Below the pieces are notes generated by a model. It made no database searches. It saw only the letters and a list, made by a program, of their open reading frames with translations, and had not been told where the DNA came from. Made by a program: the position numbers and the translations under genes. From Rhodoferax sp. TH121 (lineage in GTDB: Bacteria; Pseudomonadota; Gammaproteobacteria; Burkholderiales; Burkholderiaceae_C), in assembly GCF_002251855.1 (NCBI RefSeq), contig NZ_NOXW01000022.1:620001-684000 (forward strand): DNA of 64,000 nt, in the 5' to 3' direction. Below are positions 2,095 through 64,000 of this stretch, in pieces (within the stretch, counting starts at the first letter, position 1; each line of letters begins with the position of its first letter).

Positions 2095-2142
2095 TGCTAT
2101 GAATACAGGAGCTGCTCGCGCAGTATTGGCGAGGGCTAGAGC
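2095..2142 (-). repeat. Dispersed repeat copy in the miaB leader
   Basis: Reverse orientation. It carries GAGCTGCTCGCGCAGTATT followed by GGGCTAGAG, matching the core shared with copies at 6405, 14860, 18575, 19353, 40169, 47521 and 62772. It sits between the small secreted protein gene and miaB. Confidence 0.7.
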
Positions 2143-4564: not shown

Positions 4565-6403
4565 TTAGGCCCCGTTCAGCCACTTGTTGGCAGCGGCAGC
4601 GTCGCGGATCGACAAGCGCACAGCCGTGCTGGGGGCGGGCATGGCGAGGGTCAGCGTCATCAAGCGCTTGTCGCGGGAGACCAGCGCGCTGACTTTCTTG
4701 GCTTTGCCGGTGTAGAGCGTCAAGTCGTCCAGCGCCTGCATGCGCCAAGGCTGGCCCTCCGTTTGTACGGCCAACCATTCATCGCCTGCGGCAAAGCCCG
4801 CTTTTTCGGCCACGCTACCGCGCAACACCTGTTGGACGAACAGGCCGCCGTTTTCTTTCACACGCAGGCCGAGTTGTTGGGCCACTTGGTCGGGTTCGCG
4901 GTTGACCTGCACGCCGTGCTGCTCCAGCAGCTCGGCCACGGGCAGCTCTTTGGTGTTGTGTACCCAGTGGGCGATTTCCTTGGCGTAGCTGCGGCCAGTC
5001 TGTTCCTGCAATACGGTCAGCAGGTCGGCCTCAGTCATGGGGCCGCCGGCGCAGCGGGCCCACAGGCCGCGCATCACGGCGTCCAGGCTGGTTTTGCCTT
5101 CCGCGCGCAGCGTGAGGTCCAGGCACAGGCCCACCAGCGAGCCTTTGGTGTAGTAGCTCACCGTGGCGTTGGCGGTGTTTTCGTCCTGGCGGTAGTACTT
5201 CACCCAGGCGTCAAAGCTGCTTTGCGCCACGCTTTGCACCAGGCGGCCGGGCGTCTGGTTCACCTGGTTGATGGTTTTGCTCAGCAGCTTGAGGTAGGTG
5301 GCGTTGTCGATGCGCGCGGCGCGGCGCAGCAGCAGGTCGTCGTAATAGCTGGTGAAACCCTCAAAGAACCACAGCAGCTGCGTGTAGTTTTCCTGCGTGT
5401 AGTCATAGCGGGCCAGCTCGGCCGGGCGCAGGCGCTTGACGTTCCAAGTGTGGAAGTACTCGTGGCTGATCAAGCCCAGCAATGTGGTGTAGCCCTCGGG
5501 CTGCTTGTGCGTGGTGGGGGCCAGTGTGGTGCGGGGCAGGCGCGGCAGGTCTTTGCGGGCGCAGATGAGGGCGGTGGAGTTCTTGTGCTCCAGGCCGCCA
5601 TAGCCGTCGTGCACAGCAGCCAGCATGAAGACGTAGTTTTTGAAAGGAATCGGGCTATGGCCCCCGTCCTTCTTGCGCGAGGCGCTCACTTTTTTGACAT
5701 CGGCAACCGCTTCCCCGTGCCAGAAGCGCAGTTCGGCCTCGCAGATGGCCTGGGTGTCGGACAGCAGCTGGGCGCCGTCAAAGCTGGGCGGGGCGCCTGC
5801 CACCACAAAGCGGTGGGGGATGCCACAGGCCACAAAGCTGCCGCTCCAGAAGGGGCCCAGTTCCACCGGGCAGTCCACCAGGGTGTCGTAGCTGTCGGCG
5901 CGGTAGAGGCCAAAGCCGGCCTTGTCGCATTTCACCGCCTCCAGCCCGGTGGCTACTTGCCAGCCCTTGGGGGCGCCGGCGGCGGCGATGGCCAGCGTGT
6001 GCGGGGTGTCGGCCAGCTCGGGCACTTGCAGGCACAGGCTGGTGCCGTTGAAGAAACCGCGTTGTGCGTCCAGCCACGCGGTGCGCACCGAGGCATCAAA
6101 CGCGTACACCTCGTACTGCACCTGCAGCGGCGTGCCAGGCGTGCACGCCACCTCCCACGTCGCCTTGTCATGCTGCTGCACGGCCACGCGCTTGGTGCCC
6201 TGGCGGGCGTCCAGCTTTTGCAGGTGCTTGGCAAATTCGCGCACCAGGTAGCTGCCCGGAATCCACACCGGCAGGCGCAGGGTTTGCTGCGCGGTGGGGG
6301 CGGGCACGGTCAGGGTGACGCGGAACAGGTGGGCCTGCACATCCAGCAGCTCCACCTGGTAGTGCACGGGGGCGGTGGTGTTCGTGGAGGTGCGAGATTT
6401 CAT
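4565..6403 (-). CDS. M61 family zinc metallopeptidase with PDZ domain
   Basis: 612 residues from ATG 6403. The zinc motif HEYFH is at 314-318 within 'ISHEYFHTWNVKRLRP', followed by 'WFFEGFTSYYDDLLLRR' supplying the third ligand glutamate, as in glycyl aminopeptidases of family M61. A PDZ-like segment ('NGGLFVQQVLRGSVAEKAGFAAGDEW') is near 490-570. No signal peptide is seen, so the protein is probably cytoplasmic. A start 8 codons upstream (6427) is open, but those codons are encoded by a dispersed repeat copy, so I prefer 6403. It is last in a minus-strand row with dsbC and a UbiH-family gene. Confidence 0.93.
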   Translation of the reverse strand: MKSRTSTNTTAPVHYQVELLDVQAHLFRVTLTVPAPTAQQTLRLPVWIPGSYLVREFAKHLQKLDARQGTKRVAVQQHDKATWEVACTPGTPLQVQYEVYAFDASVRTAWLDAQRGFFNGTSLCLQVPELADTPHTLAIAAAGAPKGWQVATGLEAVKCDKAGFGLYRADSYDTLVDCPVELGPFWSGSFVACGIPHRFVVAGAPPSFDGAQLLSDTQAICEAELRFWHGEAVADVKKVSASRKKDGGHSPIPFKNYVFMLAAVHDGYGGLEHKNSTALICARKDLPRLPRTTLAPTTHKQPEGYTTLLGLISHEYFHTWNVKRLRPAELARYDYTQENYTQLLWFFEGFTSYYDDLLLRRAARIDNATYLKLLSKTINQVNQTPGRLVQSVAQSSFDAWVKYYRQDENTANATVSYYTKGSLVGLCLDLTLRAEGKTSLDAVMRGLWARCAGGPMTEADLLTVLQEQTGRSYAKEIAHWVHNTKELPVAELLEQHGVQVNREPDQVAQQLGLRVKENGGLFVQQVLRGSVAEKAGFAAGDEWLAVQTEGQPWRMQALDDLTLYTGKAKKVSALVSRDKRLMTLTLAMPAPSTAVRLSIRDAAAANKWLNGA

Positions 6404-6404
6404 A

Positions 6405-6450
6405 TCAAATTGGCCTCTAGCCCGCATAAATTCTGCGCGAACAGCTATGA
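6405..6450 (+). repeat. Dispersed repeat copy upstream of the M61 gene
   Basis: Contains GGCCTCTAGCCCGCATAAAT then TCTGCGCGAACAGCTATGA, a full match to the family layout. It spans the region just before the peptidase start codon, and its GAGG on the minus strand may serve as that gene's ribosome binding site. Confidence 0.8.
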
Positions 6451-6475
6451 AAAAAGGAGTAAATGCAGGGCTGGA

Positions 6476-13965: not shown

Positions 13966-14862
13966 GTGACCCTGTCCTACGACTGGTTGGCCTTGGGGGC
14001 TGCGGCCTGCTGGGCCGTCACCGGGCTGCTGTCAGCACCACAAGCGCGCCATCTGGGCGCGTTTGCATTTACGCGCTGGCGCATGGGGCTGGTGTTCCTG
14101 ATGTTGTTGCCGCTCGTGGTGGCCAGCGGGGGCTGGCAAACGCTGTCATGGGCTTCGTTCGGGGTGCTCGCGTTCAGTGGCTTGATCGGCATTTTTGTGG
14201 GCGACACCGCACTGTTTGCCTCCATGAACCGGCTGGGACCCCGTCGCACGGGGGTGCTGTTTGCCACCCACGCCTGTTTCAGTGCGCTGCTGGGTTATGC
14301 CGTGCTGGACGAGCGCATGGGCGCCCAGGCCTTGTTGGGTGGCGCGCTGGTGGTGGGCGGTGTGATGATGGCCGTGGCCCTGGGCGCGCACAAAAACGAA
14401 TCGCATGCGTTGGAGGTCACGCGCGGCCATTGGCCGCTGGGTGTGGCGCTGGGCCTGCTGGCCGCGCTGTGCCAGGCCCTGGGCTCGCTGATCGCCAAGC
14501 CCATCATGGCTTCAGGGGTGGACCCGGTGACGGCCACCGTGGTGCGCGTGGGCGCAACCTGCGTGGCCCATCTGATGCTGCTTTGGGCGGGAGTGGGGGT
14601 GGCGCGCACGCAGAACGCCCTGTCTCTGCATGTGCTGGCATGGGTCGCCTTGAGCGGCATGATTGGCATGGGCTTGGGCATGAGCCTGATCCTGCTGGCA
14701 CTGCGCCATGGCGACGTGGGCATGGTGGGCATCCTCTCGTCGGTATCGCCGGTGCTGGTGCTACCGCTGTTGTGGTGGCATCTGGGGCGCCCGCCAGCGC
14801 GTGGGGCCTGGTGGGGTGCCGCCCTCACGGTATTCGGGACTTCACTTGTTTTGGTGCGGTAG
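13966..14862 (+). CDS. EamA/DMT-family permease
   Basis: 298 residues with about ten hydrophobic helices in two EamA repeats (1-140 and 150-298), the layout of drug/metabolite transporter superfamily exporters in the inner membrane. The substrate is unknown. The start codon is GTG 16 bases after the ychF stop, with no strong ribosome binding site, so translational coupling or a later start is possible. A dispersed repeat copy begins at the stop codon. Confidence 0.85.
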   Translation: MTLSYDWLALGAAACWAVTGLLSAPQARHLGAFAFTRWRMGLVFLMLLPLVVASGGWQTLSWASFGVLAFSGLIGIFVGDTALFASMNRLGPRRTGVLFATHACFSALLGYAVLDERMGAQALLGGALVVGGVMMAVALGAHKNESHALEVTRGHWPLGVALGLLAALCQALGSLIAKPIMASGVDPVTATVVRVGATCVAHLMLLWAGVGVARTQNALSLHVLAWVALSGMIGMGLGMSLILLALRHGDVGMVGILSSVSPVLVLPLLWWHLGRPPARGAWWGAALTVFGTSLVLVR

Positions 14863-14902
14863 CCCGCATGGATAATGCGCCAATAGCTCCTAAATATATA
14901 GC
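14860..14902 (+). repeat. Dispersed repeat copy
   Basis: TAGCCCGCATGGATAATGCG then CCAATAGCTCC...TATATAGC. It begins on the stop codon of the EamA gene and fills the gap to the convergent YqaA-type gene. Confidence 0.75.
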
Positions 14903-14920
14903 ATTGAATGCGGTATTTGA

Positions 14921-18574: not shown

Positions 18575-18619
18575 TCTAGCCCGCATGCAATGTGCGCCAG
18601 TAGCTATGTATTACGTAGC
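18575..18619 (+). repeat. Dispersed repeat copy
   Basis: TCTAGCCCGCATGCAATGTG then CGCCAGTAGCTATGTATTACGTAGC. The terminal GTAGC...GTAGC halves differ from other copies only at a few bases. It lies between purH and gmhA. Confidence 0.8.
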
Positions 18620-18702
18620 AAGTCCTGCGTTGCAAAAGGCTCTGTGGGGGCTTGTTCTGGTGAAGTACCGCCGCCGCCAGGGATTGGGCGAAAATCGCCC
18701 CC

Positions 18703-19330: not shown

Positions 19331-19361
19331 GGGGCTAGAGGTGAAATTGACCTCTAGCCCC
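19331..19361. repeat. 12-bp perfect hairpin between gmhA and hemL
   Basis: GGGGCTAGAGGT (19331-19342) and ACCTCTAGCCCC (19350-19361) are exact reverse complements around GAAATTG. It joins two opposed GGCTAGAGG modules of the dispersed repeat between convergent genes. It may act as a terminator for both, though a clear T run is missing. Confidence 0.8.
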
Positions 19362-19397
19362 TATGGGGTATGCGCTGACAGCTTCTATTTTGATAGC
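19353..19397 (+). repeat. Dispersed repeat copy overlapping the hemL 3' end
   Basis: TCTAGCCCCTATGGGGTATG then CGCTGACAGCTTCTATTTTGATAGC. The last 13 bases supply the hemL stop codon and its final codons. Confidence 0.8.
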
Positions 19398-20689
19398 AAC
19401 TTAAAGACCTCGCCTGCAGCCGCCACAGTTTCAGCGATGTCTGCATCGGTGTGTGCTGCGCTCATGAAGCCGGCCTCGTACAGCGCTGGGGCGATGTAGA
19501 TGCCGCGGTCAAGCAGGCCGTGGAACAGGGTGTTGAAGCGGGCGTTGTCCGTGGTCATCACTTTGGTGTAGTTCTGTGGCAAATCCTTGAACAGGAAGAA
19601 GCCGAACATCCCGCCCTCACTGTCACCACAGAAATCCACACCGGCCTTGTCAGCCTCGGCTTGCAAGCCACGGATCAGGCTCTGGGTCTTGCGGCCCAGG
19701 TCTTCGTAGAAACCGGGTTTGCCGATCTCCTTGAGGGTCGCCAAGCCGCAGGCCGTTGCCACCGGATTACCAGACAGGGTGCCGGCCTGGTAGACCGGCC
19801 CCAGTGGCGCGAGCTGCTCCATCACCGCGCGCTTGCCGCCAAAGGCCGCCAGCGGCATGCCGCCGCCAATCACCTTGCCCAGCACCGTCATGTCCGGCTC
19901 GAAACCGGGAATGCTGCGGGCGTACACGCTTTGCGCGCTGCCAAAGGCCACCCGCAAGCCGGTCATCACCTCGTCAAACACAAACAGCGCGCCGTAATGG
20001 GTGCACAGCTCGCGGCAGCGTTTCATGAATGGCACGCTGGCACGCACAAAGTTCATGTTGCCAGCGATCGGTTCGATCATCAGGCAGGCCAGTTCTTTGC
20101 CGTGCAGCGCAAAAGCCTCTTCAAGCTGCTGGAGGTTGTTGTACTCCAGCACCAGCGTGTGCTGTACCACTTCGGGGGGCACACCGGCGCTGGTGGGGTT
20201 GCCAAAGGTGGCCAGCCCCGAGCCAGCCTTTACCAGCAGCGCATCGGCATGGCCGTGGTAACAGCCCTCGAACTTCAAAATCTTGCTGCGGCCGGTGGCA
20301 CCACGCGCCAGACGGATGGCGCTCATGCCGGCCTCGGTACCACTGCTGACCAGACGCACCATGTCCATGCTGGGCACGCGCTCCAAAATGGCTTCGGCCA
20401 GCTCCACCTCGCGCTCGGTAGGGGCGCCGAAGGAGAAACCATCGATGGCCGCTTTCTGTACCGCCTCCAGCACAGCCGGGTGGCCATGGCCCAGGATCAT
20501 GGGGCCCCAGGAGCCGATGTAATCAATATGGCGCTTGCCATTGGCGTCCCAGAAGTAAGCGCCTTGGGCGCGCTGCACAAAGCGTGGTGTGCCGCCCACG
20601 GCTTTGAACGCGCGCACGGGCGAGTTCACTCCGCCAGGAATCACGCGCTTGGCGCGTTCGAACAGGGCTTGGTTGTGATCAATGGACAT
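19385..20689 (-). CDS. hemL: Glutamate-1-semialdehyde 2,1-aminomutase
   Basis: 434 residues, full length. A PLP enzyme giving 5-aminolevulinate for tetrapyrrole (heme) synthesis. N-terminal '[26 protein letters not shown]' and the PLP lysine Lys272 in '[17 protein letters not shown]' are diagnostic. It lies 18 bases downstream of thiD on the same strand, probably co-transcribed. The last codons and stop (KLLSK-stop) are written by a dispersed repeat copy. Confidence 0.97.
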
Positions 20690-40154: not shown

Positions 40155-40168
40155 GAGTCAAATAGTGC

Positions 40169-40214
40169 TTTAGCCCTCGTGGATACTGCGCGAGCAGCTA
40201 CTATATTGATAGTG
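40169..40214 (+). repeat. Dispersed repeat copy
   Basis: TTTAGCCCTCGTGGATACTG then CGCGAGCAGCTACTATATTGATAGTG, between fbpB and tRNA-Arg. Confidence 0.8.
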
Positions 40215-46280: not shown

Positions 46281-48107
46281 TCAGGTGTCCCAGCCGTGGG
46301 GTCGGCGCTGGGCCTGTTCAGCGCGCTCCTGCGCCATCTGCTCTTCCAGTTGCTGGCGGCCCTGTTTGATCACGGCAATCAGCTTGGAGCTGTCTTTGTA
46401 GTGCGGGTGCAGCTTCTCGAACAGCTCCAGGTTGTGCTGGCGAAAGCGCATGGCGGTCTGGCGCGCCGCATGGGGCTCGTGGCCCAGCAGCTCCAGCACG
46501 CTGCGGGCGCTGCGCAGGCTGGACTCAAACAGTTCGCGCTCCACCCGCACCACGCCGCGGTCGCGCAGCTGGTTCCAGTGCGTCACGTCGCGCGCCCGCG
46601 CCACGATCTGCAGCTGCGGAAAATGCGCCTGCGCCAGGTCCACAATCTCTAGCGATTGCTCTACATCGTCCACCGCCACTACCAGCACCTTGGCCGTGGC
46701 TGCGCCCGCAGTGCGCAGCAGGTCCAGCCGCGTGGCGTCGCCATAGAACACACGGTAGCCAATGTTGCGCGCCACCTCGATCATTTCGGCGTCGTGGTCC
46801 AGCACGGTGGTGGCTATGCCTTCGGCCGTGAGCAGGCGGCCGACAATCTGACCGTAGCGGCCAAAGCCCGCAATCACGATGGGCGCCTCTTGCTGTTCCG
46901 AGATTTCTTCCATCGCAGGCACATCGCAGTTGGCGTAGCGCGGCAGCAGCAGCCGGTCCACCGCCACCAGAATCAGCGGGCTCAGCAGCATGGACACGGC
47001 CACTGCGCCAATCAGCAGCGAGGCGGTTTCGGCCGGGAATACTTTCGCACTGGCTGCGGCCTGAAACACCACAAACGCAAACTCGCCACCCTGCGCCAGC
47101 AGCAGCGTGAACACCGGGCGCTCCTGGAAGGGCAGTTCGATATGGCGCGCCAGTGCGTAGATCACCGCACCCTTGATGGACAGAAAGCCCAGCACCACCA
47201 GCGCCATCAGGCCGGGCGATTGCAGCAGCACGCCAAAGTCGATGCTCATGCCCACGGCAATGAAAAACAGGCCCAGCAGCAGACCCTTGAAGGGCTCGAT
47301 GTCGGTTTCCAGCTCGCGCCGGTATTCACTCTCGGCCAGCAGCACACCGGCCAGAAAGGCGCCCAGCGCCATGGAGAGGCCCACCAGCAGCATCAGCGCC
47401 GAAATGCCTACCACCAGCAGCAGCGCTGCGGCAGTAAAGATCTCAGGTGTCTTCGAGCGCGCAATCCAGCGCAGCAGCGGGCGAATGAGCAATCGCCCAC
47501 CGAGCACGATACCAGCAATGACAGCTATGATTTTGATAGCTGTTTGCGCATATTCCATGGGGGCTGAGGCCTCATTTGCCATTGAAACGACGCCCAGCAG
47601 CGGCAGCAGCGCCAGGATAGGGATGGCCGCCACGTCCTGGAACAGCAGGATGGAGAAGGCCGCCTGGCCACTGCGGGTGGGCAGCAGGTTGCGTTCGCCC
47701 ATCACCTGCAGTGCAATCGCAGTGCTGGAGAGGGCCAGACCCAGCGCGGCCACCACGGCCAGGCGCCAGTCCACGCCGCACGCTACCGCCGCCAGGGCCA
47801 GTACCAGCGCGCAGCCCAGCACCTGCAAACTGCCCCAGCCAAAGATGGAGCGGCGCAGATTCCAGAGGCGCTTGGGTTCCAGCTCCAGGCCCACCAGAAA
47901 CAGCATCAGCACCACGCCAAACTCGGCAAAGTGCAGGATGTCTTCCACATTGGTCACCAGGCCCAGGCCCCAAGGGCCGATGGCAATGCCCGCCGCCAGA
48001 TAGCCAATGATGGAGCCCAAGCCCAAGGCCTTGGAAAGCGGCACGGCAATCACCGCCGCGCTCAAATAGATAAAGCTGTTGATCAGCCAGGTGGGGGCGT
48101 GTTCCAT
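46281..48107 (-). CDS. kefB: Glutathione-regulated potassium/proton antiporter KefB-type
   Basis: 608 residues from ATG 48107. About twelve transmembrane helices of the CPA2 exchanger family ('HFAEFGVVLMLFLVGLELEPKRLW', 'MALGAFLAGVLLAESEYRRELETDIEPFKGLLLGLFFIAVGMSIDFG'), then an RCK/TrkA-N domain 'PIVIAGFGRYGQIVGRLLTAEGIATTVLDHD' (about 420 on). Effluxes K+ during electrophile stress. The loop after 'LLPLLG' is about six residues longer than in E. coli and is encoded by an in-frame dispersed repeat. kefF lies just upstream, its stop overlapping this start. Confidence 0.92.
   Translation of the reverse strand: MEHAPTWLINSFIYLSAAVIAVPLSKALGLGSIIGYLAAGIAIGPWGLGLVTNVEDILHFAEFGVVLMLFLVGLELEPKRLWNLRRSIFGWGSLQVLGCALVLALAAVACGVDWRLAVVAALGLALSSTAIALQVMGERNLLPTRSGQAAFSILLFQDVAAIPILALLPLLGVVSMANEASAPMEYAQTAIKIIAVIAGIVLGGRLLIRPLLRWIARSKTPEIFTAAALLLVVGISALMLLVGLSMALGAFLAGVLLAESEYRRELETDIEPFKGLLLGLFFIAVGMSIDFGVLLQSPGLMALVVLGFLSIKGAVIYALARHIELPFQERPVFTLLLAQGGEFAFVVFQAAASAKVFPAETASLLIGAVAVSMLLSPLILVAVDRLLLPRYANCDVPAMEEISEQQEAPIVIAGFGRYGQIVGRLLTAEGIATTVLDHDAEMIEVARNIGYRVFYGDATRLDLLRTAGAATAKVLVVAVDDVEQSLEIVDLAQAHFPQLQIVARARDVTHWNQLRDRGVVRVERELFESSLRSARSVLELLGHEPHAARQTAMRFRQHNLELFEKLHPHYKDSSKLIAVIKQGRQQLEEQMAQERAEQAQRRPHGWDT
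47521..47578. repeat. Full dispersed repeat copy inside kefB
   Basis: On the plus strand ACAGCTAT-GATTTTG-ATAGCTGT, then TTGCGCATATTCCATGGGGGCTGAGGCCTCATTTG. The GCAAATGAGGCCTCAGCC...TGCGCAAACAGCTATC layout on the minus strand aligns with the copy at 6405. In frame with kefB. Confidence 0.85.
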
Positions 48108-59221: not shown

Positions 59222-60340
59222 ATGTCGCCAGCCTTGTACGACCTGTCTCCTGTGTTGCGCCTGCTCTTGGTTGGCGGGGTGCTGACTGCGGTGCCACTGC
59301 TTTGGGTGCTGCTGCGCCACCGGCGTACCAGTCCCATGGGGCGTTATCAGGCCCTCACCGTCGTGACCCTGTTCTTGACCTTTGATCTGGTGCTGTTCGG
59401 TGCCTTCACGCGTCTCACCGACAGCGGTTTGGGCTGCCCTGACTGGCCCGGCTGTTACGGCAGTGCCAGCCCCTTGGGGGCCAAAGAGGCGATTGCCACG
59501 GCGCAAGCGGCCATGCCCACCGGCCCGGTGACCCACAGCAAAGCCTGGGTGGAGATGGTGCATCGCTACCTGGCTACGGGCGTGGGCGGATTGATTCTGG
59601 TGCTGGCGGTGTCTGCCTGGCTGGGTCGCAAAACCTACTTGAAACAATCCGGACTGGGGCCTTGGTTGCCCACCTTCACCCTGGTATGGGTGTGTGTGCA
59701 GGGGGCATTTGGCGCACTCACGGTGACCATGAAGCTGTTTCCGGCCATCGTGAGCCTGCACTTGCTGGGTGCCTATCTGCTGCTGGCACTGTTGACGGTG
59801 CAGGTGGTACGCAATGGCGGCATGGCAGCAGCGGTGCCGACCTGGGTCAAGCCTTGGGCGGTGGCTGCCTTGGCCATGCTGGTGCTGCAAGCCGCATCGG
59901 GCGCCTGGGTCAGCACCAATTACGCCGTACTCGCCTGTACCGAATTCCCCATGTGCCAAGGTAGCTGGTGGCCCGCCATGGACTTTGGCGGTGCGCTGGA
60001 ACTCTGGCGTCCGCTGGGCGTGGGCCACGACGGTGAGCACATCAGCTTCCAAGTTTTGACTGCGATTCACTTTACCCACCGCCTGCTGGCTGCGCTCACT
60101 GTGCTGGTGTTGGCCAGTCTGGCCTGGCGCTTGCGCAGTCTTGCCGCATTGCGCCAACCCTCGCGCTGGCTGGGCGCTTTGCTGCTCTTGCAGGTGGTCA
60201 CGGGCCTGAGCAATGTGGTGCTGGACTGGCCGCTGCTGGCGGCCGTCTTGCACACCGGGGGCGCTGGGGCTTTGTTGGTGACCTTGGTGTGGATCTTGGC
60301 TCTGACAGCCCAGCCCTCCTTGAACGGAAAAAAAGAATGA
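59222..60340 (+). CDS. ctaA: Heme A synthase
   Basis: 372 residues, eight transmembrane helices. '[21 protein letters not shown]' and '[12 protein letters not shown]', later '[12 protein letters not shown]' and '[11 protein letters not shown]' give the heme-ligand histidines. Converts heme O to heme A. The stop overlaps the ctaB start (ATGA). Confidence 0.97.
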
Positions 60341-61233
60341 CTGCGAACGCTTCCATGGCTGCGCCCTCGGTGCTGCGCCAATTTCATGCGCTGACCAAAC
60401 CCCGGGTGATTCAGCTGATCGTCTTCTGCGCCCTCATCGGCATGGTGCTGGCGGTGCCCGGCGTGCCCACGTTTCCTCAGATCGGCTTGGCCGCCATCGC
60501 CTGTGTCGGCATCTACCTGGTGGCTGGCGCGGCCGCTGCTTTCAACTGCATTGTCGAAAAAGGCATTGACGCCAAGATGAAACGCACCGCCTGGCGCCCC
60601 ACCGCGCGTGGCGAGCTCAGCGATGTGCAGACCCTCATCTTCTCGGCCCTGCTGTGCAGCGTGGGGTCAGTCATCCTCTATGTGTGGGTCAACCCGCTCA
60701 CCATGTGGCTCACCTTTGCCACTTTTGTGGGTTACGCCGTCATCTATACCGTGATCCTCAAACCACTGACACCCCAGAACATCGTCATCGGTGGTGCCTC
60801 GGGCGCCATGCCGCCCGTGCTGGGCTGGGCCGCCATGACGGGCGACGTGGGGCCCGAAGCGCTGATTCTGTTCCTCATCATCTTCTTGTGGACACCCCCG
60901 CACTTTTGGGCGCTGGCCCTCTACCGGGTGGAGGACTACCGCAAGTCCGGCCTGCCCATGCTGCCGGTCACCCATGGCAGCGAGTTCACACGCCTGCAAA
61001 TCCTGCTCTACACCTTCATCCTGGCTGCAGCCTGCGTGTTCCCCTTCGTCTATGGCATGAGTTCCTGGCTGTACCTTGTGGTGGCGCTGGTCTTGAGTGC
61101 TGGCTTCTGCTGGTATGCCGTGCGCTTGCTGCGCAACTACTCGGACGACCTCGCCCGGGCCACTTTTCGCTTCTCCCTCATCCACCTGAGCGTGTTATTT
61201 GCCGCTCTACTGGTGGACCATTACCTTCTGTGA
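60337..61233 (+). CDS. ctaB: Protoheme IX farnesyltransferase
   Basis: 298 residues, UbiA prenyltransferase family with nine helices. '[19 protein letters not shown]' is the first Asp-rich motif (with Glu in place of one Asp) and '[15 protein letters not shown]' the second. Adds the farnesyl group to heme B to give heme O. Confidence 0.97.
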
Positions 61234-61241
61234 GACCCGCC

Positions 61242-61853
61242 ATGAATAAACGTTCTGCTCTTAAATCCATAGCTGTCTGCGCAATATTCATGGGCGCTAT
61301 GACTATTTTGACGGCCTGTTCCGAGCAGAAACCCTCGTTTGCCTCGGTGGACGTGACCGGTGCCAACTACGCCAAGGACTTTGAGCTGACCGACCACAAC
61401 GGTCAGGTGCGTCATCTGACCGACTTCAAGGGCAAGGTGGTGGTGATGTTCTTTGGTTTCACCCAGTGCCCAGATGTGTGCCCGACCTCCATGGCCGAGT
61501 TGGCCGAGGTCAAGCAACTGCTGGGCAAAGACGGTGATCGCCTGCAAGGCCTGTTTGTGACTGTGGACCCCGAGCGCGACACCGCCGAGGTGCTGAAGGC
61601 CTATATGGGTAACTTCGACCCCACCTTTTTGGCCTTGTACACCACGCCCGAGAAGCTGGCCGCATTGGCCAAGGACTACAAGGTCTATTACAAAAAGGTG
61701 GAGGGCAAGACCCCCACCAGCTACACCATGGACCACTCGGCGGGCAGCTATATCTACGACCCGCAGGGCAATCTGCGCCTGTTTACGCGCTACGGCAGTG
61801 GGGCCAAGGTGCTGGCGTCCGACATCGCCCAGCTGCTCAAAAGCAGTTCCTGA
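61242..61853 (+). CDS. sco1: SCO1/SenC copper chaperone (lipoprotein)
   Basis: 203 residues. Lipoprotein signal with lipobox 'LTAC' (lipid Cys26), copper motif 'CPDVCP' (76-81) and distal His in 'MDHSAGSYIYDPQGN'. Delivers copper to CuA of subunit II. The signal peptide (residues 8-21) is encoded by a reverse copy of the dispersed repeat. Confidence 0.96.
   Translation: MNKRSALKSIAVCAIFMGAMTILTACSEQKPSFASVDVTGANYAKDFELTDHNGQVRHLTDFKGKVVVMFFGFTQCPDVCPTSMAELAEVKQLLGKDGDRLQGLFVTVDPERDTAEVLKAYMGNFDPTFLALYTTPEKLAALAKDYKVYYKKVEGKTPTSYTMDHSAGSYIYDPQGNLRLFTRYGSGAKVLASDIAQLLKSSS
61264..61304 (-). repeat. Dispersed repeat copy encoding the SCO1 signal peptide
   Basis: Reads AATCCATAGCTGTCTGCGC then AATATTCATGGGCGCTATG; about 29 of 39 bases match the copy in the Bug protein gene on the opposite strand. 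Confidence 0.65.
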
Positions 61854-62843
61854 TCAATCGATCTTGATGCCCTGGCTGGCTATGATGCCGCCCAGCAGCG
61901 CGGTGTCGGACTGCACGCGCAGGCGCAGGCCCTCCGCCGTGGTGCCCACCACGGTCCAACCCTGCTGAAACATCTTTTGGCGCATCTCGGGGCTGCGCGC
62001 AATCTCACTGAAGAGCGTGGCCAGCTTGGCCGCGGCCGCCGGGGGCAGGGTGTTGGGCGCGGCCACCGCGTTCCAGATCTCCAGGTTGAAGTTTTTCACA
62101 CCGGCTTCAGACAGGCTGGGAATCTCGGGCGCCAGCGGGCTGCGCACGCTGGCTGTGACGCCAATCGCTTTGAGCTTGCCGGCCTTGATTTGGGCATTGG
62201 CCAATGCCGGGGGCAGCAGGCTCAGGTGCAGGTCCCCGGCAATCATGGCGGTGGCCACCTGCGGGTAGCCGGGGTAGGGTACATGCACCGGGGCAATCTT
62301 GGCCTGTGACTTGAGCAGCTCCATGCCCAGGTGGCCCACGGTACCCATGCCCGGCGTGCCGTAGTTCCAGCGGTCACCGGCTGCGCGCGCGGCCTGCAAA
62401 AACTCGGAGGCGTTGTTGCCTGGGGCATTGACTGGCGCCGTCAGCACCAGGGGCGACACACCCAGCAGGCTCAGCGGCTGCAGGTCCTTGAGCGGGTCGT
62501 AGCTCAGCTTGGGGTTGAGCAGCTTGGCAATCGTCATGTTGCCGTTGATCATCAGACCGATGGTGTGGTTGTCGGTGGCCTTGGCCACTGCGTCCGCGGC
62601 AATATTGCCAGCCGCGCCCACCTTGTTGTCCACAATCACCGGCTGGCCCAGGGCCTTGGACAGCGGCTCGGCAAAGGCGCGGGCTGTCAGGTCGGGCGAG
62701 GAGCCGCCGGGAAAGCCCACGATGATGCGCAGCGGTTTGCTGGGCCAGGTTTCGGTTTTTGGTGCTTTTTGGGCCATAGCCCCCGTAGATAGTGCGCAAG
62801 CAGCTATCGAAAGTGTAGCAATGGTGAGCGCGCGGCGTTGCAT
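61854..62843 (-). CDS. Bug/TctC-family tripartite tricarboxylate transporter binding protein
   Basis: 329 residues: signal peptide (1-24, cleavage after GAMA) and a periplasmic venus flytrap domain with 'PSKPLRIIVGFPGGSSPDLTARAFAEPLSKALGQPVIVDNKVGAAGNIAADAVAKA', the Bug signature. Binds a small carboxylate for a TctAB permease not in the window. Residues 9-24 of the signal peptide are coded by a dispersed repeat copy. Confidence 0.94.
   Translation of the reverse strand: MQRRALTIATLSIAACALSTGAMAQKAPKTETWPSKPLRIIVGFPGGSSPDLTARAFAEPLSKALGQPVIVDNKVGAAGNIAADAVAKATDNHTIGLMINGNMTIAKLLNPKLSYDPLKDLQPLSLLGVSPLVLTAPVNAPGNNASEFLQAARAAGDRWNYGTPGMGTVGHLGMELLKSQAKIAPVHVPYPGYPQVATAMIAGDLHLSLLPPALANAQIKAGKLKAIGVTASVRSPLAPEIPSLSEAGVKNFNLEIWNAVAAPNTLPPAAAAKLATLFSEIARSPEMRQKMFQQGWTVVGTTAEGLRLRVQSDTALLGGIIASQGIKID
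62772..62819 (+). repeat. Dispersed repeat copy encoding the Bug protein signal peptide
   Basis: GGCCATAGCCCCCGTAGATA then GTGCGCAAGCAGCTATCGAAAGTGTAGC. Complete core; in frame on the minus strand. Confidence 0.85.
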
Positions 62844-62862
62844 GGTGTGGGTGTCTCCGAAA

Positions 62863-62899
62863 TAAAAATGCCCCTGCGACCGGGGCCAGCAGGGGCATT
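62863..62899 (-). terminator. rpoH terminator
   Basis: AATGCCCCTGC (62867-62877) and GCAGGGGCATT (62889-62899), followed on the minus strand by TTT. Confidence 0.92.
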
Positions 62900-62931
62900 G
62901 TCGCGCAAGCGCCGCAGCGCTTGGCGCGGGA

Positions 62932-63873
62932 TCAGGCGTAAGCCGCCAGCGCGGTCTTCATCTTCTTCATGGCTGCCACTTCGATCTGGCGGATGCGCTC
63001 GGCGCTCACGCCGTATTCGGCGGCCAGGTCATGGAGGGTCATGCCGCCACTGTTGTCGTCGTTCACCTTGAGCCAGCGCTCTTCCACGATGCGGCGGCTG
63101 CGCTCGTCCAGACTGGCCAGGGCGGTGGCAATGCCGTCGGTGGCCAACACATCGCGCTGGCGCGCTTCGATCATGGCCACGGGTTCGTGGGCGGTGTCGG
63201 TCAGGTAGGCGATGGGGCCAAAGGCGTCTTCGCCGTCGTCACCCGGGGTGGGGTCCAGCAACACGTCACCACCCGACAGGCGGGTTTCCATTTCCAGCAC
63301 GTCTTCGGGCTTCACGTTCAGCTCACGGGCCATCGCGTCCACCTGGGTAGGGTTCAGCGTGTCGCGGTGGGTGTCCAGATCGGCGGCCGCATCTTCGCCC
63401 TTGAAGCGCTGCTTCATGGAGCGCAGGTTGAAGAACAGCTTGCGCTGGGCTTTGGTCGTTGCAACCTTGACCATGCGCCAGTTCTTCAAGATGTACTCGT
63501 GAATCTCGGCCTTGATCCAGTGCAGCGCATAGCTCACCAGGCGCACGCCCTGGTCCGGGTCGAAGCGTTTGACGGCCTTCATCAGGCCCACATTGCCCTC
63601 TTGGATCAGGTCGCCGTGGGGCAAGCCGTAACCCAGGTATTGGCGTGACACGGACACCACCAAACGCAAGTGAGAGAGCACTAACTTACCGGCAGCTTCA
63701 AGGTCGTTGTCATTCTTGAACTTGCGCGCAAACTCCTGTTCTTCTTCCAGCGTGAGCATGGGCAGGCGGTTGGCGGCAGAAATATAGGCGTCCAGATTCC
63801 CCAGTGGCGGCACCAGCGACCACGGATTGGCCGGGGCCAGGGCAGTTTGGGGCATGGCAAGCAGTGTGGACAT
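62932..63873 (-). CDS. rpoH: RNA polymerase heat-shock sigma factor
   Basis: 313 residues. Region 2 'LVLSHLRLVVSVSRQYLGYGLPHGDLIQEGNVGLMKAVKRFDPDQGVRLVSYALHWIKAEIHEYIL', the RpoH box 'QRKLFFNLR' and region 4 'MTLHDLAAEYGVSAERIRQIEVAAMKKMK'. Directs transcription of heat-shock genes. It has a perfect AAGGAGG ribosome binding site, and a perfect CIRCE operator lies upstream. A terminator follows. Confidence 0.97.
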   Translation of the reverse strand: MSTLLAMPQTALAPANPWSLVPPLGNLDAYISAANRLPMLTLEEEQEFARKFKNDNDLEAAGKLVLSHLRLVVSVSRQYLGYGLPHGDLIQEGNVGLMKAVKRFDPDQGVRLVSYALHWIKAEIHEYILKNWRMVKVATTKAQRKLFFNLRSMKQRFKGEDAAADLDTHRDTLNPTQVDAMARELNVKPEDVLEMETRLSGGDVLLDPTPGDDGEDAFGPIAYLTDTAHEPVAMIEARQRDVLATDGIATALASLDERSRRIVEERWLKVNDDNSGGMTLHDLAAEYGVSAERIRQIEVAAMKKMKTALAAYA

Positions 63874-63902
63874 TCAGAACCTCCTTGTGTTCAGTCTTTA
63901 TA

Positions 63903-63929
63903 TTAGCACTCGTAAGAGTTGAGTGCTAA
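63903..63929. promoter_or_regulatory. CIRCE operator (HrcA site) before rpoH
   Basis: TTAGCACTC (63903-63911), nine-base spacer, GAGTGCTAA (63921-63929): exact match to the CIRCE consensus and spacing. A -10-like TAATAT overlaps one arm on the rpoH strand. Confidence 0.92.
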
Positions 63930-64000
63930 AGGGAAGTTCAATGACCCCAATAGGATTCGGATGAAGTTGTGTAAAGCCTCGGCCCCCACCGTTTTGGGCG

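Follow-up and report, generated by a model that had tools for sequence, protein, structure and literature searches.

A short dispersed DNA family in the putative signal peptide of a Rhodoferax Bug protein, and its recurrence in one reading frame among exported proteins of Comamonadaceae

How the same DNA can lie scattered between genes and also encode the beginning of an exported protein is the question raised by a Bug-type binding protein gene of Rhodoferax sp. TH121. Signal peptides evolve quickly, and their origins can seldom be traced. For a window of 64,000 nucleotides, the whole stretch of DNA analyzed here, the original prediction held that a dispersed repeat had become the signal peptide of this protein. 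We find it fairly probable that the signal-peptide part of the gene is occupied by a dispersed DNA family of Comamonadaceae, of ~47–50 bp, and that the family is kept there by the tolerance of signal peptides for it in one frame. The gene, its convergent neighbor and the copies within them are as follows.

61854..62843, minus strand: TctC/Bug solute-binding protein gene, 329 aa (PF03401, E 1.2e-51), start ATG at 62843
62771..62820, minus strand: family copy in the Bug gene; codons 8–24, IATLSIAACALSTGAMA, give the putative signal-peptide core and AxA site (consensus of the family on the plus strand)
61242..61853, plus strand: SCO1/SenC lipoprotein gene (PF02630, E 5.8e-45), ATG 61242 assigned by eye in the frame of a longer ORF
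61256..61299, plus strand: copy within the SCO1 signal peptide, in the frame used by the Bug copy and reading SALKSIAVCAIFMGA (profile match)

The Bug protein carries the TctC domain, and a simple heuristic identifies its N-terminus as a putative signal peptide. Minus-strand bases 62819–62772 translate to ATLSIAACALSTGAMA, codons 9–24 of the 329-codon ORF 62843–61854, which bears out both the claim of an in-frame copy within the first 24 codons and the translation given for it. The profile of the family matches this segment at 62771–62820 with E 2e-11, or at 62777–62820 with E 9e-12. Signal-peptide core and cleavage region are thus family DNA, as had been claimed, and they would form a working signal peptide; in the Bug gene the copy appears to have come second. 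That a mobile copy moved in and so became the signal peptide is less well supported: no empty site was found for the Bug copy, the seven window copies compared with near relatives lacked a copy-sized indel, and subfamily structure is weak. Nor is the case singular, the signal peptide of the neighboring SCO1 also holding a copy.

The family consensus is GGCCTCTAGCCCCCGTGGAATCTGCGCAAGCAGCTATTAAATTAATAGCA; profiles span 42–47 columns, or 50 in another build, and the information content is 54.7 bits over 62 columns. Allowing up to two mismatches to 19 fixed core bases, the genome (3.99 Mb, 22 contigs) holds 244 matches versus none for the reversed pattern. In the window, the core pattern has 7 matches versus none in 100 shuffles. 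A systematic sample of 1.264 Mb (the window plus 60 segments of 20 kb each) yielded 186 copies at E<0.01, the best E on reversed sequence being 0.71; extrapolation by proportion suggests ~590 copies in the whole genome. Twelve places in the window reach E<0.01, three of them weak (36768, 44484, and 51427). Besides the copies in the Bug and SCO1 genes, these profile matches are:

2095..2141, minus strand (consensus strand): family copy, intergenic
6415..6459, plus strand: family copy on the 5' side of gene 4565–6403 (minus), classed as intergenic
14860..14903, plus strand: family copy, intergenic
18575..18620, plus strand: family copy, intergenic
19352..19398, plus strand: family copy overlapping the 3' end of ORF 19385–20689 (minus)
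40168..40212, plus strand: family copy, intergenic
47524..47565, minus strand: family copy lying in frame within a Na/H exchanger gene (46281–48107, minus)

All four places to which the repeat had also been assigned (14860, 18575, 19353, and 40169) are real copies, but the description "between genes" does not hold for the third, which overlaps an ORF. The copies at 2095–2141, 6415–6459, 47524–47565, and 61256–61299 had been overlooked, the last, in the SCO1 signal peptide, being the most important. The protein with the copy at 47524–47565 has 608 aa, and the copy falls in its Na/H exchanger domain; at the orthologous site of L337 the motif is kept at equal length. Intergenic copies of this genome are found in convergent gaps in 26 of 87 cases, versus 65 of 500 gaps over 60 bp, and in divergent gaps in 5 of 87, versus 145 of 500. 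A known RNA family was rejected as the identity of the repeat, Rfam giving no match at E<=1 across window positions 60000–64000.

Within the bacterial family, the distribution of the repeat is patchy (49 of 150 genomes). Of 80 homologues of the Bug protein retrieved from named genomes, 19 have the motif at the signal peptide in the expected orientation (E<1e-4), and 5 others have it more weakly. Most carriers bear the label Rhodoferax or Curvibacter, and one is a Polaromonas. In Acidovorax, the signal peptides of the homologues are of the RRASLLIALAAASPWALAQ type and unrelated to the motif, although family matches occur elsewhere in the three Acidovorax genomes checked (312, 253, and 424). Two Ramlibacter genomes (L102 and L123) and L113 contain 0–3 family matches, like the control, and their Bug homologues begin with other N-termini, L102 with other codons as well; repeat-free orthologues encoding the same N-terminus with the same codons were thus not found among these family-poor genomes. 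On a tree of the mature Bug proteins the carrier label needs five changes, at least three of them on well-supported branches, which implies multiple gains or several losses.

The neighboring SCO1 gene offers a second case. Its N-terminus reads MNKR[SALKSIAVCAIFMGA]MTILTAC, with SALKSIAVCAIFMGA the part coded by the copy, and the motif is found in 30 of 56 SCO1 orthologues at E<0.01, from Rhodoferax, Curvibacter, Acidovorax, and Ottowia. The SCO1 signal peptides of the family-poor L102, L113, and L123 have 26 residues in a similar amino-acid pattern with other codons, so that the SCO1 signal peptide itself need not stem from the repeat; to judge from these sequences, the motif may overlie a pre-existing signal peptide. 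By-eye reading of ten SCO1 signal peptides from other members of the order gave lengths of 16–23 residues. Of nine Acidovorax SCO1 copies scored (L105, L107, and others), seven match a profile built from Acidovorax better than one from the own genome, as do several non-Acidovorax copies, which is no more than suggestive of homogenization or re-insertion. The SCO1 and Bug stop codons abut without a spacer (61853/61854). In L049 and L051 the two genes are separated by an 82 bp spacer with another family copy, absent from the own genome, and L050 has a spacer of another kind.

Codon usage follows the motif. In the Bug signal peptides of the 19 carriers, ATA makes up 22 of 28 Ile codons (79%), versus 3.3% in the mature parts, and in the SCO1 signal peptides of the 30 carriers 39 of 56 (70%), versus 2.3%, both sets of carriers having been picked by motif score, which biases the comparison. 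ATA and GCT codons are rare elsewhere. Non-carrier signal peptides are intermediate in ATA use (18% for Bug and 43% for SCO1), and perhaps include decayed copies in part. For SCO1, third-position agreement at codons for the same residue is 0.71 in the signal-peptide core and 0.63 in the mature part of carriers so chosen, versus 0.47 and 0.63 in non-carriers. The rare codons kept in carriers indicate that the DNA has been retained in addition to the peptide.

To cover other genomes, 400 kb each was sampled from one of the same genus (G125) and two of other genera (G146 and G035), which gave 41, 97, and 94 copies, respectively. Genes were called with a purpose-written codon-based caller and signal peptides with the simple heuristic, neither being a published tool. 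Across 2.464 Mb of the four genomes there are 418 copies, 232 intergenic and 186 in genes or open 5' extensions. Fourteen overlap heuristic signal peptides (7 in the own genome and 1, 4, and 2 in the other three), all at E 2e-5 or better:

Window (own genome): Bug (TctC) and SCO1
L046: DsbD (Pfam)
L038 and L203 (two genomes): GspD-type secretins (Pfam)
L147:3711: Peripla_BP_6 protein (Pfam)
L147:1786–2727: BPD_transp_2 permease (PF02653)
L153 (another genus): SCO1 (Pfam)
L184: heavy-metal-associated protein (Pfam)
L188: another TctC protein (Pfam), copy on the sense strand
L201: SBP_bac_11 protein (Pfam), copy on the sense strand
L186: large protein with Ig-like matches below threshold
L185 and L036: proteins without a Pfam match

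Beyond the window, most of these genes belong to exported or membrane families according to Pfam. The copy in the permease probably sits in a first membrane helix or anchor rather than in a cleaved signal peptide. When the 186 genic copies are placed randomly in coding DNA, 3.16 overlaps are expected versus the 14 observed (Poisson 6e-6), a count that includes orthologues and hence dependent cases; when all 418 copies are placed over all DNA, 6.05 are expected (P 3.9e-3). The weaker excess in the second comparison indicates that signal peptides are enriched relative to other coding DNA; copy density in signal peptides is not above that of spacers in three of the four genomes. A same-frame copy also forms part of a membrane stretch of DsbB (YALILVAISAALAGASG; L018:9898–9947, E 2e-7; Pfam DsbB E 2.4e-43).

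Of the 14 overlaps, 12 are antisense to the consensus in a single phase, the two on the sense strand being those of L188 and L201. The same antisense frame is used by 30 of 105 internal genic copies (Fisher 5.8e-5), although this excess is partly built in, as the heuristic demands hydrophobicity. The intergenic copies test the point independently: when 206 of them are read in all six frames, the antisense frame yields a strongly hydrophobic, uncharged core of 11 residues 34 times and the others 2, 0, 1, 0, and 0 times, and random intergenic 54-mers give an uncharged hydrophobic core in ~2%. This upholds the view that one frame of the repeat suits a signal peptide. The own genome (22 of 83) and G125 (7 of 17) show this tendency strongly, G146 (4 of 55) and G035 (1 of 51) weakly. 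Signal peptides accept nearly any short hydrophobic sequence with small residues at its end. One antisense frame of the family is usually open and reads (A)I..xIAACAxSTGAxx, which is short, Ala-rich, and hydrophobic with small residues at the end. We propose that copies coming to lie at a signal-peptide site in this frame would be kept by this tolerance of signal peptides. Substitutions losing the usual Arg would leave a working h-region and AxA site; a 13-residue core without a charged residue or His is found in 17 of 19 Bug carriers versus 17 of 100 intergenic copies (own genome and G125), a contrast that its P-value overstates, the rows being related. Recruitment of this kind appears to have happened in several genes for exported proteins.

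The copies could have reached their places by old insertion, or as a motif kept by drive or selection. A chance likeness of hydrophobic, Ala-rich codons to the profile is scarcely credible: weak same-strand matches do exist in Ala-rich genes (E 1e-3 to 1e-2), but the Bug copy reaches E 9e-12 and the 14 overlaps 2e-5 or better, where reversed controls give at best 0.05–6, and the rarity of ATA and GCT elsewhere argues against it as well; shuffle, reversed-pattern, and reversed-sequence controls led us to reject it. Descent of the family from an ancient signal peptide, for instance the one of SCO1, would fit the wide occurrence of the motif among SCO1 orthologues (30 of 56), yet we see no way in which a stretch of coding sequence could have given rise to hundreds of scattered copies, and SCO1 signal peptides of outgroups in the order are unlike the motif, which makes this descent very improbable. 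A REP- or MITE-like mobile element, old or inactive, which inserted into signal-peptide and other coding sequence and then decayed, we put at slightly below an even chance. The dispersed and patchy occurrence (49 of 150 genomes) and the many in-frame genic copies (186 of 418, 5' extensions included) are consistent with it, as is a copy (L209:2168–2208) ~340 bp from the matched domain of the single Y1_Tnp (RAYT-like) gene of the own genome. An in-frame copy in the linker of AcnA (L031:4811–4860) points the same way, the own linker having 57 residues versus mostly 40–46 in family-poor relatives; a clean insertion is undercut by linkers of 58, 52, and 56 residues in the family-poor L304, L314, and L316. 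A copy-and-paste element is expected to leave young, near-identical copies. However, among 159 own-genome copies the two most alike agree in 42 of 48 columns, about what column shuffles give (mean 41.2), and no empty site was found for the signal-peptide copies. The stem likewise lacks covariation, no pair exceeding the shuffle maximum in four copy sets, and a hairpin under selection was rejected for that reason.

A rather less probable, though possible, alternative is a DNA motif resembling an uptake sequence or bound by a protein, which biased recombination or selection keeps in place without any insertion and which signal peptides merely tolerate. Both the shuffle-like maximum identity and the stem without covariation agree with this. 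So does the comparison of 7 of the 12 window copies with up to three near relatives, in which no copy-sized indel was found, with unlike sequence within the kept core; at one orthologous site (L336) the copy had decayed. The preference of copies for convergent over divergent gaps, and the closer third-position agreement in the SCO1 core, also fit, but the carriers in the latter test had been chosen by motif score. To our knowledge, the information content of known uptake sequences lies far below the 54.7 bits over 62 columns of this motif. Identity variance, moreover, exceeds all 100 column shuffles in all four copy sets, only slightly in the own genome (10.4 versus 8.8) and likewise in G035 and G146, which implies some linkage, although unequal decay could cause such variance. 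Against a motif without insertion stand also the 82 bp copy-bearing spacer of L049 and L051 and the longer own AcnA linker, the latter countered by the family-poor linkers of 52–58 residues. Frame and gene-end bias are known for uptake sequences, as far as the accessible text goes (PMC2346458). Between these two readings, we lean slightly toward a family that inserted long ago and away from a motif of the uptake kind. A G/U-type glycosylase bearing a copy aligned with solved homologues to within a few residues; for a MacB/FtsX-like protein, the alignment did not cover its copy.

Repeat-coded signal peptides are known in kind. In the accessible part of Delihas 2007 (PMC2759123), RU-2 forms part of the predicted signal peptide of the Yersinia gene YPO1552, whose relatives have unrelated signal peptides. 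RU-2/YPAL and ERIC (RU-1) of enterobacteria are likewise small dispersed repeats with some frames open and in-frame gene fusions (PMC2759123 and PMC2229807, in the parts available), but measure 127–168 bp and concern single loci, in contrast to ~47–50 bp and repeated one-frame recruitment by conserved exported proteins here. In-frame repeats including the Rickettsia palindromic elements (RPE), which lie inside many conserved proteins, are reviewed in the available text of PMC2229807; RPE are palindromes of 105–146 bp, whereas this family has 42–50 profile columns, lacks a covarying stem, and is associated with signal peptides in particular. GTAG/CGTC REPs with their RAYTs are also short and numerous, biased to gene ends, and reported inside genes (accessible text of PMC3733652, in which none of the Comamonadaceae genus names tried was found), but stem covariation is absent here and the RAYT link consists of one Y1_Tnp hit with a copy ~340 bp away. 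The near-identical young copies or subfamilies of a MITE were not found among the own copies (maximum 42/48; variance 10.4 versus 8.8). Uptake sequences, on the available part of PMC2346458, share hundreds of copies, frame and gene-end bias, and weak subfamily structure with this family, which itself shows hundreds of copies, few subfamilies, and both biases; the motif here is longer and richer. The betaproteobacterial BRE is a repeat of Comamonadaceae with some copies in genes (PMC3110155, as far as available), but with ~90 bp, 69% GC, and at most 29 copies per genome it was rejected as the identity on length, G+C, and copy number, that is, by its description and not by consensus letters. In the literature searched, neither this family nor a single repeat that provides many signal peptides is described; as far as that literature shows, the family and its recurrent use in one frame are new.

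One motif has here been caught supplying the cores of putative signal peptides in unrelated proteins, namely Bug, SCO1, the secretin GspD, DsbD, and periplasmic binding proteins. A tentative and rather unlikely extension would be that the motif is held by a drive at the DNA level (uptake-like or by conversion), that one of its frames is a ready-made signal peptide so that genes for exported proteins come to harbor it, and that some of the N-termini exported across Comamonadaceae are set by this drive and not by selection on the proteins. The codons of motif-bearing signal peptides mark their DNA origin, and they make it possible to test how DNA that is neutral or driven turns into protein. The motif is also a warning that the 5' ends of genes bearing it get miscalled: the codon-based caller put the starts of both window genes, Bug and SCO1, after or inside the copy.
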